Assembly: GCF_000470315.2 (NCBI RefSeq)
Contig: NZ_CBRF02000001.1
Span: forward strand, 186,001-250,000
Direction of reading: 5' to 3'
DNA length: 64,000 nt
Source of the DNA: Psychromonas sp. SP041
GTDB taxonomy: Bacteria; Pseudomonadota; Gammaproteobacteria; Enterobacterales; Psychromonadaceae
In this document: positions 3,272-59,921 of the stretch, in pieces
Layout of the letters: each line of letters begins with the position of its first letter
Numbering within the stretch: the first letter of the stretch is position 1
Translations under genes and position numbers: made by a program
The notes under the pieces: model-generated
Seen by the model: the letters and a program-made list of their open reading frames with translations, nothing else
Databases searched by the model: none
What the model was told of the DNA's origin: nothing

Positions 3272-3784
3272 CTAACCCTGCTTGATAAGAGACATCTTAA
3301 AGGCGCTAAAAGCAATGCGTTCTACTGTCTCACTTGGTATTTCAACATGTTCACTTTCTTTTATTTCACTGTCTGTGATAAGCATTAGGCTATCCATATT
3401 AGGGCACTTTGCAATTGCCAGTGCACATAGTAATCCTTCTACTAGTAACAACAGTAATCGCTTCTTACTCGTACCCTGGTCAGTCCACCAGCTATAAGTA
3501 GTGCGTCTGCTCTCACCAATCAACAGGGTAAAATCTGTAATGGAAGTTTTTGCAAATCCTAGCTTGTTCAATAGACTTTGCAGATCAACCTCTGGGTCAT
3601 TTATTAGCGCATTTCGCTCCTCTTCAGTGTGAAATTCAAGCGCAGTGGCTAGCTCAAGAAGTCTGACCCTGTGGCCCCGAGAAGACTTCCACTTACTAAG
3701 CGATGAGTAAGCCGCGCCAGTTACCTCAGAAATTGTAGCTTGCTTGGCGATATCAAAGGCCGTCCAGTTAGTTGCATTGTTCAT
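3272..3784 (-). CDS. HTH-like protein downstream of the DndC-like gene
   Basis: 170 residues, ATG with AAGGCGAG upstream. Two short stretches look like helix-turn-helix or homeodomain-like units: EVTGAAYSSLSKWKSSRG near residue 20 and LLIGESRRTTYSWWTDQG near residue 88, suggesting a tandem arrangement. The gene follows the 1079-residue DndC-like gene by 15 bases on the same strand, so the two are almost certainly co-transcribed. It is a good candidate for the regulator of the repeated GCACA/TGTGC sites in the divergent promoter region, though this is inference. No enzyme motif is seen. Confidence 0.65.
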   Translation of the reverse strand: MNNATNWTAFDIAKQATISEVTGAAYSSLSKWKSSRGHRVRLLELATALEFHTEEERNALINDPEVDLQSLLNKLGFAKTSITDFTLLIGESRRTTYSWWTDQGTSKKRLLLLLVEGLLCALAIAKCPNMDSLMLITDSEIKESEHVEIPSETVERIAFSAFKMSLIKQG

Positions 3785-3799
3785 TTTAATGTTCTCGCC

Positions 3800-6700
3800 T
3801 TAAGCAATGAGTAGTGATGATAGTGCGCGACTTTTTTCTTTCGTTTTCATTTTGCTAAGTAATTTATCATGGCTCTTTTCTTTTTGGCCAGCAACTTTAA
3901 ACAAAGATGAAATTTCTTTATTAACTCTATCTGACGATTTTAGTGCCTGAGCCAGCGCAGTTGCTTGCTTATCGAAAGCATTTGCCAGACTGATCTCAGA
4001 TAATACGGCCTCTGATAGGTTAGCTTTAGCGACTTGGCTAAGCAGTAGTGTTTTAAACTGAGTGTAATCAGACAATGATGCGTGATAAAAGCCGAACCAG
4101 GCATTGTAAGCGCTGCATTGTGTTTTTCCTTCTACTCCATCAAGACTGTAGCCCATTGCACCGTATGTGCCCATATCAACGCTATTAAGCAAGGTTAGTT
4201 GCTCATTTGCAATGGCAAAGAAATCTGACATGATTTGCTTTGTTGTATTAAGCGCAAATTTAGCCGGGTTGGTTTGGTACGTTGCACGAGATACTTTTAA
4301 TTCAGCTCGTTTATTATTTCTAATCGCACGAACGTCTAGTAAGTATCGTGCTTTATCCTGGCGGTGCTGAGCCATCGTCATTGTGCCACGGTAAGCTAAT
4401 AGCTCTTCTCTTGATTTGCCCTGTAGCTCAAAGGCGCCTACTTCAGCAAACAAGTGTGAACGACGTAATGTTTTTTGAAACTGCTTTGCATAGGTTGGGT
4501 TAATTGACACACCTGCATCTCTCATTAGGCGCTTTAATGGCTCACTAACATCATACTTGCGAATCCCTCTTGCTAGTCCGTTTTTACGGTAGTAGGCGCG
4601 ATGTTTGATGTTCATGCTAAGGATGTTGTCATGGCGCTTCAAGGCCTCTAAATGACCGCCTGTTTCAAACCAAAAATCAAGTTTGTCCATGTCAATATTG
4701 TAAGCTTCAACATCACCTTCAATGTTATCTAAGTAATGAAGTGTATTAATTGGATCACGTTCGATTATTTTAAAGTCCGGCACCGAAATTTGAGTAGTAG
4801 ACTTAAATTTTGCTTCATAAATTGGAGACAAAGAAGGCGCATAAAACTTACAACGAGTCGTTGTTTTAGTTGCACTTACGAGTGTTTTTTTAACTTTTCC
4901 GTCTTTTTCTAAGTCTTTTGTTTTAAATGCTGAAACTCGGCGAGTAAAGCGATGCCCAGCCTCTACTTTAGTTGCATCAGATTTAAAGCCGGTATCGATT
5001 GTAACGGCTTTAAAGTGTCGCATTGGTACAGTTGAACTAGTGAAGTTTTTGCTCATTTTTCTTGACAAAGCAAGAGATAGCTCAGCGATTTTTTCAGCAT
5101 CATCTTCAGCATAAGCATTGACTAATGAGGTATAAAGCGCCGAGAATTTTGTGTGAATAATCGTTAGTGCTTTTTGCTCTAAGTAGTCCGCCACTTGCTT
5201 CTTTTGGCTCCCTTGAATAGCAGCGGGAAGCGCTCGGCCTGTTTGGTTATCTTTTACTTTGTTTACAACCGTTGTTATCGCGGTATCAATGCCACCATAA
5301 GCGTTTTTCTTGTGGTTAATAACCAAGTCGAACTCTGCTTTTAGGTCATAAGTATGCGCTGCGCTTTTGTCAACACTAGAATTGCCACCGATATCGCTCC
5401 ACATGTCTTCAATGCCAACTGGTTTTTGCCAGAAACTTAAGAAGTCAGGTTGGCCTTCTTTTAAGAAGTTGCTTTCAAATTCTTTGGTGTGAAAAGATAA
5501 AACTATTGGCTCAAGTGCTGGTGAAGGCTTAAGTGTTGATAGTTCAGCAGGCAATTCTGAGTTTAATTTAGGGTACGGAATACGTCCAATACCTTCAACC
5601 GTGTCAGCCCAGATAGCAAGCGGACGGTAGCCAATTGAATGAACACCTACAAGCGACCATTTAAAGCTTAGTAAAACGGCATGCTTGTCGCTAAAATATT
5701 CCATTAGCGGTTTCGTTGCTTCCTTAAGATACATTTCAAGAAATGCTTTTTTAGCCTTAGGGTGGATGTGCTTGTCTGCGACAATAGCAGCATAGCCTTC
5801 ATGCTCATGCTCGCGTCCTTGCTCTACTAGGCTTGCTAAGTGTTCAGCCCCTTTCATTGAGTCCACAGTTAGTTGAGATGCGTAGCGTACCATTTTTTCA
5901 AGGTGCTTAGATTTAAGCACGTTTGGTTGGAAAGCAATTCGATTCATTACAGGGTCAATCGCTTTTGGTTGATGTGTTCTAGCATTTGGATCAAGGCTTA
6001 TGCGAAATAGCCAATCTCTTACTCTTAAAGCGTTCTCAGTACCTAACACTTTCCAGTAAGTTTTCTCAGAGACCTGGATAGTACTTTTGTCTTCTGTGAT
6101 TTGAGTACAAAAATGACATCCAAAGCGCTGTGAAGAGCCGCCACAACCCGTTGATTTAACTTTATCGTCTTCACTGATAGAGATTTGGCAGGTTTCTTGT
6201 GTTGCACGGCCATAAATTTCTAATAATAGCGCAAAGTTTTCGTAATAAGCAGGGATTGATTTACCTGCAAGACGTTCCATTGGGCTTGTGCCAGCGATAC
6301 GTAGTAGTGCAAAAACGTCCTCTGTAGACCAGGCAAAAATAGGTGCATAGTTTACTGATTTATTAATAGATAGCGTTTCAAACTCTTTAACGAGATCGTT
6401 TGCCGTCTTGCTTGCAACCTTTTGTTTTTTCATGTTTGCAGCTCTTCTTGCGCTCTCTTCTAGGCGTTGTCCTGTAATGGTCACAACACGTTTGTCTTTA
6501 CAGATAGTTTGGCGCAATAAGGCTAAATGCTTAAGTGATGGGTCTACTTTTAAAATTGGAGTACAGTCCCCGGTTCTTAGCGGGTTATTAATTAGTTTAT
6601 CTGCAGAGCCCCATTTAATGAAATACTCAGAAGAAAGGCTTGGAGAAATGGTTGAGTAGCTTAGGTTTATGCCCACTTTACGTGCATAGGTTTCGATTTT

Positions 6701-7039
6701 GTCTTTTGCATAGTTACAGAACATATGCATAGGTAGCGACTCAATCTTAGTGTCTACTGTTGAAATAAGAAGAGGGCGGCTTGCTTCTATTGTATTTTCA
6801 TTGATTGCTTGACGGTAAGCTTCAAAGGTAGCAAGTACGACGATATTGCTGTCTTTACCGTTTGAGTTAGCAAGTTTAATGATGGGCGCTTGTTTTGACT
6901 CGATAACAAATCTGATTTCGCTGACTAGCTCTTGAAACATAGCATGTACTGAGTTTTGAAGATGTGCATCTTCACTTAGTACTTCATTGGTTACATCAAT
7001 GACATTATAAGTATTTGCTAGTTGAGTTAGTAAGTCCAT
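3800..7039 (-). CDS. DndC-like PP-loop/Fe-S protein with long C-terminal extension
   Basis: 1079 residues. The first ~400 carry the DndC signature: PP-loop SNGKDS (59-64, normally SGGKDS), GDCTPILK (157-164) with Cys159, GQRLEESARRA (190-200), PIFAWSTEDVFALL (233-246), and a cysteine cluster Cys284, Cys299, Cys308, Cys311 in the context CGGSSQRFGCHFCT. In DndC such features bind ATP and a 4Fe-4S cluster and help insert sulfur into the DNA backbone. DndC is usually about 500 residues, so roughly 600 residues at the C-terminus are extra and show no motif I know; they are Lys/Arg-rich. DndA, DndD and DndE are not nearby. The divergent arm holds a DndB-like protein and a TusA-like sulfur carrier. 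The target (DNA, RNA or a small molecule) is unknown. Confidence 0.8.
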   Translation of the reverse strand: MDLLTQLANTYNVIDVTNEVLSEDAHLQNSVHAMFQELVSEIRFVIESKQAPIIKLANSNGKDSNIVVLATFEAYRQAINENTIEASRPLLISTVDTKIESLPMHMFCNYAKDKIETYARKVGINLSYSTISPSLSSEYFIKWGSADKLINNPLRTGDCTPILKVDPSLKHLALLRQTICKDKRVVTITGQRLEESARRAANMKKQKVASKTANDLVKEFETLSINKSVNYAPIFAWSTEDVFALLRIAGTSPMERLAGKSIPAYYENFALLLEIYGRATQETCQISISEDDKVKSTGCGGSSQRFGCHFCTQITEDKSTIQVSEKTYWKVLGTENALRVRDWLFRISLDPNARTHQPKAIDPVMNRIAFQPNVLKSKHLEKMVRYASQLTVDSMKGAEHLASLVEQGREHEHEGYAAIVADKHIHPKAKKAFLEMYLKEATKPLMEYFSDKHAVLLSFKWSLVGVHSIGYRPLAIWADTVEGIGRIPYPKLNSELPAELSTLKPSPALEPIVLSFHTKEFESNFLKEGQPDFLSFWQKPVGIEDMWSDIGGNSSVDKSAAHTYDLKAEFDLVINHKKNAYGGIDTAITTVVNKVKDNQTGRALPAAIQGSQKKQVADYLEQKALTIIHTKFSALYTSLVNAYAEDDAEKIAELSLALSRKMSKNFTSSTVPMRHFKAVTIDTGFKSDATKVEAGHRFTRRVSAFKTKDLEKDGKVKKTLVSATKTTTRCKFYAPSLSPIYEAKFKSTTQISVPDFKIIERDPINTLHYLDNIEGDVEAYNIDMDKLDFWFETGGHLEALKRHDNILSMNIKHRAYYRKNGLARGIRKYDVSEPLKRLMRDAGVSINPTYAKQFQKTLRRSHLFAEVGAFELQGKSREELLAYRGTMTMAQHRQDKARYLLDVRAIRNNKRAELKVSRATYQTNPAKFALNTTKQIMSDFFAIANEQLTLLNSVDMGTYGAMGYSLDGVEGKTQCSAYNAWFGFYHASLSDYTQFKTLLLSQVAKANLSEAVLSEISLANAFDKQATALAQALKSSDRVNKEISSLFKVAGQKEKSHDKLLSKMKTKEKSRALSSLLIA

Positions 7040-7078
7040 TGTCGAGCCTTTATTAGTTGCTGTTGTTATTATGGGGTC

Positions 7079-7107
7079 ATTATAAATCTATATTGCACAA
7101 ATGTAAA
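7079..7107 (-). promoter_or_regulatory. Promoter of the DndC-like gene
   Basis: On the minus strand TTTACA, 17 bases, TATAAT. The spacer contains the first copy of a direct repeat (ATCTATATTGCACAAATG, 7086-7103), so a protein bound there would occlude RNA polymerase. Confidence 0.7.
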
Positions 7108-7156
7108 TAAAACGCGGGCATATAATTAATTTAATAATCTATGTTGCACAGTGTGC
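7086..7156. repeat. Paired operator repeats between the DndC-like and DndB-like genes
   Basis: ATCTATATTGCACAAATG (7086-7103) recurs as ATCTATGTTGCACAGTGT (7137-7154), 51 bases apart start to start, about five helical turns. The second copy contains a perfect inverted repeat GCACA-G-TGTGC (7146-7156). One copy lies in each of the two divergent promoters. Confidence 0.7.
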
Positions 7157-7171
7157 GAAAAGTGTTATAGT
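7144..7171 (+). promoter_or_regulatory. Promoter of the DndB-like/TusA-like arm
   Basis: TTGCAC, 16 bases, TATAGT; the -35 overlaps the GCACAGTGTGC inverted repeat. Transcription would begin near 7178, which excludes the in-frame ATG at 7151 as a start. Confidence 0.65.
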
Positions 7172-7222
7172 ATCTCCCATCAACAACATCTAACGAACAA
7201 AATAATAAGAAAGGTACCTAAC

Positions 7223-8446
7223 ATGAACAACTCAAATGAAAGCCGTATAATGACATCGCCTATTAAAAAAGACTTGCAACTTACATTGTTTAAAGCGCAA
7301 GAAGGTATTATGAACTTATATCCTGACATTGAAGTTTGTGAAGGGATCATTACAACTCAAGAACTCATTGAGCACTTTCTTGTTGAGCAAAATGCCGATG
7401 TGATAGATGAAAAATATAAAATGCAACGTGATGTAGATAAAAGCCGCGTAAATGGCCATATCGACTACGTTAGAGAAGGGAACACTATTTACCCAAGCCT
7501 CACTATCTTCGTTAATAAGCTGGATATTCAAGAAGAAACCACGATAGGTAACCGTGTTGTCTATATCGCAAATCTATTAAGTGGCAGCGATAGATTCCTG
7601 TGTGATGGACAAGGAAGATACTCAGGTAACAAACATGTCTACTCAGAGATGGAATCAATGGGTGATTTTAACGAAATGCTTCGTCTAGGTAATCAAACAT
7701 TTGGCTTTAAAGTCATTATTACTAACAGTGACACTATCTACTGTAAAAAAGAAATTGTACGTACTGTGTTTTCTGACTACCATCTGAATCTTAAAAAGCC
7801 TTCAACGTCACTGTCTCTGTACTTTGATGGCAAGACTCCTTACAGTAAATTAATGCGCTCATTAATAGAAACAACGGAACTTGCAGGAAAGCCATTAGAA
7901 AAATGGATCTCTCTTAACGGAACACTTAAGCTTGGTCAAATGTGGAAATTAGATCAGTTCGCTAAGTTCATTCATACAGCAATGGATAAAACTAAAGGTC
8001 AGTTTAATAAGGATCTTAAAGAGCAAGAAGTTTATGATGAAGTGTTGTCTGTTTTACAAGTTATTTTGCCTAAAGCACTTAATAATTTGCCGGTTAATGT
8101 ATTAACCGAAGATACCGAGGGCTCTCCTAATGTCCCTCACGACGCAACCTTGTTTGGTGCCGCGCTTTTCTCTGAAGGCCTTGGATACCTCGTGCGCTCG
8201 ATTATCGACCGCTCTTTTATTACTGGGAAACTTGAAATCAGTAAACTAGATGCGCTGGCGAATCTTCCACTTGATAACTTATATGATAAAGAATGGCTAA
8301 AAGCAGACATTATCATGCCAAACCCTAACGCCGCTTCAAGTGCTAGAGCAAAAGAGTTTATTATTGTTAAGCACAGTGCAAAACGAATCGGCAGTCACTT
8401 ATGTGAAATGCTTGATGTGTACCCTTGTAAAGCGCTAAGAGCGTAG
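7223..8446 (+). CDS. DndB-like DGQHR-type protein
   Basis: 407 residues from the ATG at 7223, preceded by AGAAAGG; an upstream in-frame ATG at 7151 lies within the promoter. Residues 69-100 (QRDVDKSRVNGHIDYVREGN...YPSLTIFVN) and FLCDGQGRYSG (125-134) match the layout of DndB/DGQHR proteins, where a DGQHR loop sits on a ParB-like fold; here His is replaced by Gly (DGQGR). DndB represses or tunes the dnd phosphorothioation genes, so this protein may regulate the divergent DndC-like arm or sense modified DNA. The TusA-like gene follows with an 8-base gap, so the two are co-transcribed. Confidence 0.75.
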   Translation: MNNSNESRIMTSPIKKDLQLTLFKAQEGIMNLYPDIEVCEGIITTQELIEHFLVEQNADVIDEKYKMQRDVDKSRVNGHIDYVREGNTIYPSLTIFVNKLDIQEETTIGNRVVYIANLLSGSDRFLCDGQGRYSGNKHVYSEMESMGDFNEMLRLGNQTFGFKVIITNSDTIYCKKEIVRTVFSDYHLNLKKPSTSLSLYFDGKTPYSKLMRSLIETTELAGKPLEKWISLNGTLKLGQMWKLDQFAKFIHTAMDKTKGQFNKDLKEQEVYDEVLSVLQVILPKALNNLPVNVLTEDTEGSPNVPHDATLFGAALFSEGLGYLVRSIIDRSFITGKLEISKLDALANLPLDNLYDKEWLKADIIMPNPNAASSARAKEFIIVKHSAKRIGSHLCEMLDVYPCKALRA

Positions 8447-8454
8447 GAGTGAAC

Positions 8455-8769
8455 ATGAATACACCTTCATTCAAAACGCTAGACCTTAAAGCACATCGTT
8501 GCCCTACCGCGTTTATCTCAGCTCGAAAAGGCATCGATTCGTTCTTAGAAACAGCTAAGACAGGTGATAGGCTGGCAATACAGACGATTGAGCCAAGCAT
8601 TGAAAGGGATCTGCCCATGTACTTGAACTCAGATGCACAAGATTTAAAAATTGAGCAGGTACTTAATGGCGATATATCTCAAAAAGCGATTGACTCTTGG
8701 GAAGAAAGCTTTGATAAAGAGGATTGGGAAGACTGTTCACAGCATTGTTTCGTACTCATTAAAAGTTAA
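8455..8769 (+). CDS. tusA: TusA/SirA-like sulfur carrier
   Basis: 104 residues. The ATG at 8455 follows TAGGAG that overlaps the stop of the preceding gene; a GTG two codons earlier is less well placed. The start TLDLKAHRCPTAFISARKGI, then GDRLAIQT, EPSIERDLPMYL and the end CFVLIKS, align along the length of E. coli TusA, including the active Cys-Pro motif (Cys16) and the following Asp-x-Pro region. TusA accepts persulfide sulfur from the cysteine desulfurase IscS and passes it on. An insertion of about 20 acidic residues precedes the last strand. Placed beside DndB-like and DndC-like genes, it may feed sulfur to the DndC-like enzyme. Confidence 0.8.
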   Translation: MNTPSFKTLDLKAHRCPTAFISARKGIDSFLETAKTGDRLAIQTIEPSIERDLPMYLNSDAQDLKIEQVLNGDISQKAIDSWEESFDKEDWEDCSQHCFVLIKS

Positions 8770-35688: not shown

Positions 35689-36531
35689 CTAGATTAAATC
35701 TACTGTTTTACTGAGTCTGTCCATTGCTATCTTTTCTAATTGTCTCACTCTTTCTATTGAGATAGAGAGTTCATCTGACAACTCGCTCAATGTTGCTTTA
35801 TTCTTAGCAAGCCAGCGACTTCTAATGATGATAGATGATCTTTCATCTAATAAACTTAATCCCTTATTGAGCGCTACTGAATTATGAGAACGAATTTCTT
35901 GCTCCTCTATTTGATCTGACAATTCAATGTCCGATGAAGCAATGGTGTCAATCAAGCTGTAGCTATCATCGTCTTTAATTCCTACGGAAGCGTCAAGAGA
36001 CGAACCGGGCGTTTTTATGCGCTTTTCCATTTCTATAACATCACCACTTGTTATGTTTAGCTCGCTTGCAATGGTGTTCGCTTCTTTTAGAGTAAGGCTA
36101 TTAGTGGTGCTTTTAAGTCTACGCTTATTAAAGAATAATTTTCTTTGAGGCTTTGTTGTTGCGATTTTCATCATAGAAAAATTGCGAACAATATACTCAT
36201 GAATTTCTGATTTAATCCAATGAACTGCGAACGACACTAGTCTAACACCCGATGTTGGGTCGAATTTATTAATTGCCTTCATTAAACCGATGACGCCTTC
36301 TTGGGCTAGATCAATCAGTGGAATACCGTAACCAGAGAATTTCATTGTAATGCGGGCAACAAACTTAAGGTTTGATAAAATAAGCTGAGAATATGAACCC
36401 TCATCTTTCGAATCAATGAACGTTAACGCATGCATGCATTCATCTTCTTTGCTTAACTGAGGAAATTGACCTGCTATTTTCATGAACTGAGAAAAGCCTG
36501 TAAAGCTGAGTGCTGGAAGTGATGCTGACAT
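35689..36531 (-). CDS. rpoH: Sigma-32 (RpoH) paralogue
   Basis: 280 residues against 284 in E. coli RpoH, alignable over the whole length. Region 2 is clear (ILSNLKFVARI...GIPLIDLAQEGVIGLMKAINKFDP, VRLVSFAVHWIKSEIHEYIVRN), the RpoH box reads ATTKPQRKLFFNKRR, and region 4.2 is LSELSDELSISIERVRQLEKIAM. It should direct RNA polymerase to heat-shock-type promoters, or to promoters of this element. The promoters I see here are sigma-70-like, so its own targets may be elsewhere. Its gene has a near-perfect promoter at 36561-36589. Confidence 0.9.
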   Translation of the reverse strand: MSASLPALSFTGFSQFMKIAGQFPQLSKEDECMHALTFIDSKDEGSYSQLILSNLKFVARITMKFSGYGIPLIDLAQEGVIGLMKAINKFDPTSGVRLVSFAVHWIKSEIHEYIVRNFSMMKIATTKPQRKLFFNKRRLKSTTNSLTLKEANTIASELNITSGDVIEMEKRIKTPGSSLDASVGIKDDDSYSLIDTIASSDIELSDQIEEQEIRSHNSVALNKGLSLLDERSSIIIRSRWLAKNKATLSELSDELSISIERVRQLEKIAMDRLSKTVDLI

Positions 36532-36663: not shown

Positions 36664-36740
36664 TGGTACGCCCTACTGGACTCGAACCAGTTGCCTACGG
36701 CTTAGAAGGCCGTTGCTCTATCCAGATGAGCTAAGGGCGC
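36664..36740 (-). tRNA. tRNA-Arg(UCU)
   Basis: On the minus strand the acceptor arm GCGCCCT pairs with AGGGCGT (one G-U pair at the end), the D arm GCTC/GAGC, an anticodon stem ACGGC/GCCGT with loop CTTCTAA (anticodon TCT), and a TTCGAGT T loop. The 3' end is ACCA, so CCA is encoded. It reads AGA/AGG, rare in many hosts but suited to an AT-rich element. Confidence 0.92.
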
Positions 36741-37417: not shown

Positions 37418-37507
37418 TGGCGGAGAGATAGGGATTCGAACCCTAGATGCCCTTTAGAGCATACTCCCTTAGCAGGGGAGCGCTTTCGGCCACTCAGCCA
37501 CCTCTCC
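37418..37507 (-). tRNA. tRNA-Ser(GCU)
   Basis: On the minus strand the acceptor GGAGAGG pairs with CTCTCC, the anticodon stem CTCCC/GGGAG holds loop CTGCTAA (anticodon GCT), a long variable arm (TATGCTC...GGGCAT) marks serine class II, and the T loop is TTCGAAT. CCA is encoded (GCCA end). It reads AGC/AGU. Confidence 0.93.
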
Positions 37508-58775: not shown

Positions 58776-59921
58776 TTATAATGAGAAGTCATCAAAATCA
58801 CCGGCCTCTAATTTGTTGTTAATAGCAGCAACAAGATACTGTGAGTTTTCTGCCTCCTGAGGCGCCACCTGTACATTTTCAGAAACAAGCCAACCGTTTA
58901 TCCAGGGGATAGGGTTTTCGGTCGCACCTGGGAAGGCAGGGGGCAATGAGACACTGCTCATTCTAATATTGGTAATATATTCAACATACTGGCAGAGAAT
59001 GTTAGTATTGAGCCCAATCATAGAGCCATCTTTAAATAAGTATGAAGCCCAAGATTTTTCTTGTTCTGCTGCATCTACAAACATCTTAATGCACTGTTCT
59101 CTGCAATCACGAGCAATCACTTTAAAGTCGGGGTCGTCTTCACCTTTTGCAAAAATACCAAGCATGTGTTGAGTTGAAGTTAAGTGAAGCGACTCATCGC
59201 GAGCAATTAACTTAATGATTTTTGCATTTCCCTCTAAAAGAGCACTTTCAGCAAAAGCAAATGAACATGCAAAACTTACATAAAACCGAACTCCTTCAAG
59301 GATGTTAGTAGACATAATACAAAGATATATTCTCTTCTTAAGCTCCATTAGAGAGACGTCAATATCTTCACCATCGACTGTTGTGTGCTTGCCTATGCCG
59401 TATACGCTATAAAGCTTCGTATATTCGATAAGGTCGTCATAGTAGTGAGAAACGTCTTGCGCACGGTCTACGATTTCTTTGTTATCTACAATGTCATCAA
59501 AAACAATCGAAGGATCATTAACAATATTTCTAATAATGTGGGTGTATGATCTAGAGTGAATTGTTTCTGAAAAAGACCAAGTTTCTATCCATGTTTCAAG
59601 CTCAGGCAATGATACTAACGGAAGTAAAGCAACATTAGGGCTACGGCCTTGAATGGAATCTAAAAGAATTTGGTATTTAAGGTTTTGGATAAATATATGT
59701 TTTTCGTGCTCAGGAAGAGAATTGTAGTCAATACGGTCTTTTGAAACATTAACTTCTTGTGGAAGCCAAAAAAATGATAATTGTTTTTCGATTAGTTTTT
59801 CAAATACTTCATACTTTTGTATGTCATACCGAGCAATATTAACGTTACTGCCAAGAAACATCGGCTCATTTAATGTATTTGTTTTTTTTTGATTAAAGGT
59901 AGTGTAGCGATTACGAGGCAT
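58776..59921 (-). CDS. nrdB: Class Ia ribonucleotide reductase beta subunit
   Basis: 381 residues, very close to E. coli NrdB (376) from [16 protein letters not shown] to the C-terminal DDFSL that docks on NrdA. The di-iron ligands (Asp88, Glu119, His122 and a later Glu/Glu/His set around [15 protein letters not shown]) and radical Tyr126 (HSRSYTHI) are all present. It supplies the tyrosyl radical for deoxynucleotide synthesis. No nrdA, nrdD or grx gene lies in the window, so it either pairs with a large subunit elsewhere on the element or with the host's. Leader begins upstream of 59921; no clear promoter. Confidence 0.96.

Follow-up and report, generated by a model that had tools for sequence, protein, structure and literature searches.

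The 64,000 nucleotides (nt) considered here, termed the window, are positions 186001-250000 of contig NZ_CBRF02000001.1 (C1) in the 4.8-Mb draft genome of Psychromonas sp. SP041, and they include a divergent four-gene locus that resembles in part the dnd genes of DNA phosphorothioation (Table 1). The leftward genes encode a DndC-like protein and a protein with tandem helix-turn-helix (HTH)-like repeats, while the rightward genes encode a DndB-family protein and a TusA-like sulfur carrier. The genes form two tight pairs, with gaps of 15 nt (dndC-like/HTH) and 2 nt (dndB/tusA), that diverge from one promoter region. All four open reading frames (ORFs) reported by a first-pass annotation of the sequence were recovered in place, and the DndC-like gene is present in a single copy in the genome.

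Table 1. Features of the divergent locus, in window coordinates
Feature	Position	Strand	Basis
HTH-like protein, 170 amino acids (aa)	3272..3784	-	no family match; two tandem HTH-like repeats
DndC-like sulfurtransferase, 1079 aa	3800..7039	-	PADLOC, hhalign, tblastn
Arg/Lys-rich conserved core, aa 690-920 of DndC-like protein	4280..4972	-	charge and conservation in 14 relatives
Stretch with C284, C299, C308, C311 (CGGSSQRFGCHFCT)	6107..6190	-	invariant 14/14; common to three canonical DndCs
PP-loop SNGKDS	6848..6865	-	SGGKDS in three canonical DndCs
Divergent promoter region	7040..7222		repeats and promoter-like site
DndB-family (DGQGR) protein, probable start	7223..8446	+	Pfam DndB; hhalign; motif at 7604-7618
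TusA-like sulfur carrier, 106 aa	8449..8769	+	RCP cysteine codon 8500-8502; starts 2 nt after dndB stop codon

The DndC-like protein comprises a DndC/PP-loop domain (aa ~20-390) followed by a C-terminal region of ~700 aa. The first-pass annotation had recognized a DndC-signature PP-loop protein, and profile searches do place the N-terminus inside DndC: PADLOC returns DndC at E 3.7e-26, an hhalign comparison of a 14-relative profile with four canonical DndCs gives a probability of 99.9 and E 8.1e-31 over 315 columns, and the TIGR03183 DndC model scores 78.3 bits at aa 40-355, its full-length cut-off of 290.4 not being reached; together the PADLOC and TIGR matches span residues ~34-355. The cysteine motif CGGSSQRFGCHFCT is present in the protein, and C159, C284, C299, C308 and C311 are invariant in 14/14 relatives and present in three canonical DndCs of Rhizobium and Massilia plasmids. 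The PP-loop S-x-GKDS is retained in most relatives, that of locus L009 being one residue shorter (loci other than the window are designated by L numbers). Pfam reports PAPS_reduct at 24.1 bits (cut-off 22.5), and the N-terminal part has further matches to two PAPS-reductase families of PHROG (E 1.3e-11 and 5.7e-9). An ordinary CysH/PAPS reductase is nevertheless not the best label, because the scores of DndC profiles are far higher and the protein retains the cysteine pattern of DndC. CysH-like proteins without the catalytic cysteine are described from type IV-B CRISPR systems in the available part of PMC8175902.

An AlphaFold model of the DndC-like protein, built from eight sequences, has a mean pLDDT of 58 and is confident in parts of the N-terminal half only. 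Foldseek returned no match to the N-terminal model at E<=0.001; its top matches were FMN adenylyltransferase, NcsA, TtuA and LarE at E 1.1e-3 to 1e-2, among them the iron-sulfur (Fe-S) PP-loop thiolases NcsA, TtuA and LarE (E 1.6e-3 to 1e-2). In VIA the same model aligned with NAD synthetase (Z 12.8, 184 residues, rmsd 3.6), APS reductase (Z 11.5, 200 residues, rmsd 4.1) and NcsA (Z 9.2, 193 residues, rmsd 4.4; rmsd, root-mean-square deviation). For the C-terminal region of ~700 aa no relative was found by PDB sequence search, Pfam or hhalign: Pfam gave nothing credible, a whole-protein profile retrieved no PDB sequence at E<=1, and the idea that the region hides a DndD, DndE, DndC, DndB, TusA or small Dnd protein was rejected, with an hhalign probability of 0.1 for each. 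Past aa 500, 12 residues are kept in at least 13 of the 14 relatives, seven of them Arg or Lys, and the net charge of aa 690-920 is positive in 14/14 relatives, at +7 to +20. This Arg/Lys-rich core fits phosphate or nucleic-acid contact and is a candidate nucleic-acid-binding part of the enzyme.

Separated by 15 nt from the dndC-like stop codon, the HTH-like gene encodes two tandem HTH-like repeats, and its product has no family match in scans of Pfam, PADLOC, TIGR or a PHROG-type library. Its AlphaFold model is helical (mean pLDDT 67) and finds no credible match in the PDB (Foldseek best E 1.5; VIA best Z 2.4), and its identification as DndE was rejected at an hhalign probability of 0.1%. Relatives lie downstream of the DndC-like gene in L005, L007, L015, L018, L020 and L049-L052, and in L013, L021 and L022 another protein family of similar size occupies the same place (hhalign 0.4%). 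From its repeats and position, the protein is a putative DNA-binding/target or regulatory subunit.

The rightward transcript opens with a protein that the first-pass annotation had called DndB-like, of DGQHR type. Membership in the DndB family stands, with Pfam DndB (PF14072) at 38.2 bits (cut-off 29.1) and hhalign at 98.7% against canonical DndB/DGQHR, while the type designation needs amending, as the window motif is DGQGR and the TIGR03187 DGQHR model, at 54.0, is just short of its cut-off of 58.85. PADLOC gave no match for this protein. Residues D152, G153, Q154 and R156 are invariant in 15/15 DndB-family proteins. The ORF at 7151-8446 opens at GTG 7151; the start is probably ATG 7223 instead, because AAGAAAGG lies just upstream and relatives begin near there. 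The promoter region between the two transcripts holds 20-nt direct repeats (7080-7099 and 7131-7150) and, at 7107-7079, a site resembling a promoter for the leftward transcript; shuffled sequences contain more such sites than the region itself. A shared operator was considered and rejected, since k-mers common to 15 intergenic regions were no better than in five shuffles; nor was the window's 20-nt repeat found as a shared motif in those 15 regions. In Vibrio alginolyticus pL280, a 44-nt tandem repeat present in 16 copies takes up most of the dndB/dndC-like intergenic region (L019:7165-7868).

The last gene encodes a small protein that carries RCP, described in the first-pass annotation as a full-length TusA relative with this cysteine. 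Part of that description holds. The protein is TusA-like, in that a profile of 12 TusA-like sequences, that of the window among them, retrieves the E. coli TusA structures 1dcj and 3lvj from the PDB at E 4e-4 (3lvj 4.1e-4), and in that the TusA domain fused to the DndC-like protein of Alteromonas locus L006 scores 40.7 bits in Pfam, over the cut-off. The window protein itself scores 21.9 bits, under the TusA cut-off of 28.6, and five other relatives scanned singly against Pfam gave no TusA match at E<=0.1. An hhalign comparison of TusA is not independent of these results, as its target set held the Alteromonas fused domain. Residues C18 and P19 are invariant in 12/12 aligned TusA-like proteins, and the CP motif occurs in 17/18 loci compared, the exception being L048, which reads FP. 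The TusA motif is CPxP; the window protein reads RCPTA, CPxP occurs in 0/18 loci compared, and it is present in the TusA proteins of L058 and L061, two loci with true dnd genes that are described below. An extra acidic C-terminal stretch (FDKED) is found in the window protein, and a FDEDD-like motif in many relatives. Two further TusA genes, both over the cut-off, lie on other contigs of the host, and the plasmid TusA-like protein is therefore an extra, divergent carrier. In L048 (6089-6397) Phe stands at the carrier cysteine position. Its lineage may be in decay, as the related locus of Pseudoalteromonas donghaensis (L026) is broken. Directly after tusA in Rheinheimera lies a gene for a second PP-loop-like protein of 498 aa, in which a SGGIDST motif was read by eye (L047:3414-4910).

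The first-pass annotation had also reported that DndA, DndD and DndE are absent, and the genome-wide searches agree. DndE gave no match at E<=0.001 in the window's genome, the same search matching in 3/3 control plasmids and over the cut-off in two; the best DndD match was 20.2 bits against a cut-off of 245.85, as compared to 277-591 bits in 3/3 control plasmids; and of 10 class-V aminotransferase/desulfurase matches in the genome none is on C1. IscS is encoded on another contig, C17, at 754.7 bits. Set beside the Dnd systems (DndABCDE or IscS-DndBCDE), the locus shares a DndC-type PP-loop domain with the five cysteines (in the N-terminal domain only), an accessory DndB-family protein recognized by Pfam and hhalign, and an available host cysteine desulfurase, IscS taking the place of a dedicated enzyme. 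It differs in having no DndE match and no DndD ABC-type ATPase over the cut-off, in the extra ~700-aa region of its DndC-like protein, and in its TusA-like carrier, divergent layout and separate HTH-like protein. The locus would work like Dnd, yet without DndD and DndE it does not qualify as a Dnd system. The Ssp system (SspABCD) also carries out phosphorothioation without DndD and DndE, using SspD as its DndC counterpart (PMC10853773, available part). It has the partners SspB and SspC and its own desulfurase, SspA; no Ssp name appears among the PADLOC matches of the ten window proteins scanned.

Conservation of the neighbourhood was examined in a collection of 72,556 plasmid records. The DndC-like protein matched 321 of these by tblastn, canonical dndC included (147 from Pseudomonas), with 33 of the matches spanning 80% or more of the protein. 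Twenty-two plasmid loci were examined, L006 chosen for its TusA label and the others for spread; in L010, L011, L012 and L016 the match is essentially confined to the N-terminal half, and the other 18 are of the long type. TusA lies within the examined stretch in 15/18 long-type loci (14/17 without L006), and in L015 (V. gigantis) and L023 (Shewanella LC6) it is elsewhere on the same plasmid. Among bacterial-genome loci TusA is present in 6/7, the seventh contig beginning inside the gene; one of these loci, L053, is the same plasmid as L008. The TusA profile was trained on 12 of these loci, with L006, L013, L025, L026 and L047-L051 left out of the training. The reverse test is stronger than the count of TusA in DndC-like loci: tblastn of the window TusA against the same plasmids gave 20 records at E<=0.01, and in 20/20 a DndC-like gene, whole or broken, is present (18 by tblastn; L054 and L055 by HMM), although the records include near-identical plasmids and do not amount to 20 independent events.

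The association also persists through rearrangement. In the window, as in 11/15 loci, the DndC-like gene is on one strand and tusA on the other, behind dndB; in L014 it lies between dndB and the DndC-like gene, all on one strand; in L025 tusA is upstream of the DndC-like gene and dndB downstream; L049 retains tusA and the DndC-like gene, dndB not being found in its stretch; and in L006, the Alteromonas mediterranea MRG65-300 plasmid, a TusA domain forms the N-terminus of the DndC-like protein. Pairwise distances across 17 loci are correlated (r 0.887 for DndC-DndB, 0.706 for DndC-TusA and 0.710 for DndB-TusA), values reached in 0/9999 permutations; L054 was dropped from this test, its DndC-like gene being split over two frames, and with it the values are 0.740, 0.537 and 0.660. 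A chance neighbourhood is ruled out by the 20/20 association, the fusion and the several arrangements. Co-occurrence in related plasmids and genomes, which the first-pass annotation had named as a check, was thus found, and the locus is a real, conserved plasmid module. Within the same order the DndC-like gene (E<=1e-30) occurs in 8/394 genomes, the window's own included, a sporadic distribution as expected for a mobile gene set; a scan of genome contigs with the single protein found no relative. A viral origin was rejected, as no relative was found in the viral contigs scanned and only two phage records have weak N-terminal matches to the DndC-like protein.

The locus is often struck by mobile DNA. 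Two of the 18 long-type loci, L008 and L023, are cut by it, and in Vibrio gigantis p1 the dndB homologue is in two pieces (L015:7458-7766 and L056:5140-5964), between which lies a Tn7-like element with SAVED/nucleotidyltransferase (CBASS-like) and type I restriction genes. Other interruptions involve IS21 (L055), a Tn3-family transposase gene (L008) and a tetracycline-resistance element (L057). Shorter DndC-like proteins of 604-794 aa with the same cysteine pattern are found in L010 (a 480-kb P. aeruginosa plasmid), L011 (an IncHI2A Salmonella plasmid) and L016 (Burkholderia), with no dnd gene annotated nearby. The annotations of the 18 stretches include a 3'-5' exonuclease in three (L006, L017, L022) and a DNA cytosine methyltransferase in five (L006, L020, L021, L022, L025); no single restriction nuclease recurs, and therefore no conserved restriction partner is seen.

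Some of the plasmids bearing the locus, which are large, are typed conjugative, and this raises the possibility of a plasmid conflict or regulation module, in which the DndB-like protein would be an effector of the ParB/Srx family, for fertility inhibition or as a nuclease, and the PP-loop protein its nucleotide-handling partner. The available part of PMC10853773 assigns DndB to the ParB superfamily, some members of which are nucleases or NTPases, and cites by title a 2014 paper on ParB/Srx enzymes in conjugative-plasmid conflict. Such a role would leave the conserved TusA, the five conserved cysteines and the fusion unexplained, and in the L049 stretch, where TusA and the DndC-like gene are kept, no DndB was found; we regard such a role as highly improbable.

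Three canonical dnd loci, of Rhizobium phaseoli, R. leguminosarum and Massilia, were examined as controls, and the first shows that TusA is not foreign to such loci. In R. phaseoli pRphaN831b the order is dndC, a small protein, dndD, an FtsK-like gene and tusA (L058:6965-14417), and the N-terminus of the FtsK-like protein matches Pfam DndE at 27.5 bits (cut-off 25). A search with this TusA gave 10 records at 1e-10, and of the two neighbourhoods viewed, Aureimonas pAU20f (L061:1815-9198) has the same gene order, with tusA overlapping the FtsK-like gene by 4 nt and a DndE match of 21.6 bits, under the cut-off. Both plasmids carry tusA after dndC-dndD-DndE/FtsK, so that TusA can adjoin otherwise ordinary dnd genes, a point on which the findings differ from the first-pass annotation. 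These loci resemble that of the window in having TusA by DndC, a DGQHR protein nearby and no desulfurase gene annotated in the stretch, and are unlike it in having DndD, a DndE/FtsK protein, a canonical CPxP TusA and a DndC of 379 aa. The R. leguminosarum and Massilia loci have no TusA, and their dnd genes are accompanied by one for a desulfurase; TusA and a dedicated desulfurase might stand in for each other in dnd loci, but four loci are too few to claim this. No description of the dndC-dndD-DndE/FtsK-tusA variant (L058, L061) was found in searches of the open-access literature.

Taken together, these observations make it fairly probable that the locus is a plasmid-borne sulfuration module in which sulfur passes from IscS to the TusA-like protein, to the DndC-like enzyme and on to a nucleic acid, most likely DNA. 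Host IscS would load a persulfide on the cysteine of the plasmid's TusA-like protein, which would dock on the DndC-like enzyme and pass the sulfur over. The DndC domain would activate the nucleic-acid target with ATP at its PP-loop, sulfur being inserted through the DndC cysteines and a predicted Fe-S cluster. The Arg/Lys-rich C-terminal region and the tandem-HTH protein may hold or select the target, doing the work of DndD and DndE, and the DndB-like protein may limit or regulate activity; the available part of PMC10853773 reports that DndB regulates negatively in dependence on ATP and may have further roles. The relay from TusA to a DndC-like enzyme proposed in the first-pass annotation is strengthened by the Alteromonas fusion, the interpretation as a whole being partly supported; none of the refuting conditions that the annotation had set was borne out. 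Genomic evidence gives good support to TusA as the putative sulfur donor of the DndC-like enzyme. A bolder form of the proposal, which we put forward tentatively, is that one large DndC-derived protein replaces DndC, DndD and DndE and is fed by a dedicated TusA, giving a minimal, self-sufficient sulfuration of DNA or RNA that would serve as the plasmid's own mark, possibly with a different chemistry or target.

Several points weigh against this interpretation. The window TusA-like protein falls under the Pfam cut-off and is without the second proline of CPxP, and the TusA cysteine is replaced by Phe in L048. The long-type locus L024 and the DndB-containing Aeromonas locus L012 have no TusA in the examined stretch, in the broken L026 locus the TusA match is confined to the later part of the protein, and the short relatives L010, L011 and L016 have neither TusA nor DndB by profiles. 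Re-finding TusA in the 12 loci that trained its profile is not independent evidence, and the DndC-like protein is poorly modelled except in parts of its N-terminal half. As to published systems, an E. coli tusA mutant with dptB-E keeps the Dnd phenotype, so that this Dnd system is independent of TusA (PMC3519819), and DndD/CxC and DndE are found throughout Dnd systems, in which modification would fail without them (PMC10853773, both in the available parts).

The E. coli result bears on a further alternative, that TusA only builds or repairs the Fe-S cluster of the DndC-like protein or senses redox, substrate sulfur coming straight from IscS as in iscS-dndBCDE systems. According to the available portions of these articles, IscS stands in for DndA in Salmonella (PMC11662687, PMC3519819), and IscS takes part in dptB-E phosphorothioation in E. 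coli, for which tusA is dispensable (PMC3519819). The fusion of TusA to the catalytic protein and its retention beside the DndC-like gene in several arrangements point to direct delivery instead, and a role confined to the cluster or to redox sensing seems improbable.

A more serious alternative, though still an unlikely one, is that the module thiolates RNA, whether tRNA or another RNA, and not DNA. The locus is akin to TtuA-TtuB/NcsA tRNA thiolation in its PP-loop Fe-S thiolase and small carrier, TtuA being fed by a small sulfur carrier according to the title of PDB entry 5gha. It is unlike them in that TtuA and NcsA belong to another PP-loop clade and have tRNA as their substrate. TtuB is ubiquitin-like, not a TusA. 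The RNA alternative draws on the Fe-S matches of the N-terminal model, which are the tRNA thiolases NcsA and TtuA, on the want of a DndE match and of a DndD over the cut-off, on the two tRNA genes in the window and on the TusA relay, the classic route of tRNA thiolation, in which TusABCDE passes sulfur to tRNA (PMC9239217, available part). Against it, sequence libraries give DndC or PAPS reductase and no tRNA-thiolase family, a DndB-family partner is kept and DndB is otherwise tied to DNA sulfuration, and TusA also adjoins true dnd genes. As the target of the proposed IscS-TusA-DndC route, DNA is favoured by the kinship of the enzyme with DndC, by its DndB partner and by the other association of TusA, that with true dnd genes, while the TusA relay and the resemblance to Fe-S thiolases would suit RNA.

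The replicon itself appears to be a large plasmid. On contig C1, which measures 288,524 bases, a ParA-family gene (Pfam AAA_31) precedes an ORF of 361 aa read by eye as ParB-like, and the contig is taken as a plasmid because its size fits the 121-356-kb plasmids that bear the same locus. Its ends do not overlap, TraI_2 and TraC were not found in the window's genome, and megablast of window positions 1-25000 and 40000-64000 gave no match among plasmids. Elsewhere in the window are genes for a ribonucleotide reductase small chain, an RpoH-like sigma factor, tRNA-Arg and tRNA-Ser (58776-59921, 35689-36531, 36664-36740 and 37418-37507); a tblastn search with the sigma factor gave RpoH homologues among the matches listed (10/107 records), which is uninformative on the replicon's kin. 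A 172-aa ORF at 1443-1961 matches the GmrSD N-terminal domain over the cut-off and is probably a truncated type IV restriction gene.

No description of the TusA/DndC-like module was found in searches of the open-access literature. The word TusA is absent from the available main text of PMC10853773, and no link between TusA and dnd loci appears in the available portions of PMC11662687, PMC7188994, PMC9239217 and PMC6884506. The conserved gene set identified here belongs to large plasmids of marine bacteria, in which its genes are often annotated as hypothetical. To our knowledge, the path of sulfur from the desulfurase through DndC to the DNA backbone is not settled, and DndD and DndE are thought indispensable. 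If the proposed reading is true, a DndC-type enzyme that works with TusA and without DndD and DndE would offer a simple experimental system for the sulfur-transfer step, and the role of TusA would extend from tRNA and cofactors to DNA-type sulfuration. The module suggests a stripped-down, previously unrecognized route for the sulfur modification of DNA or RNA.

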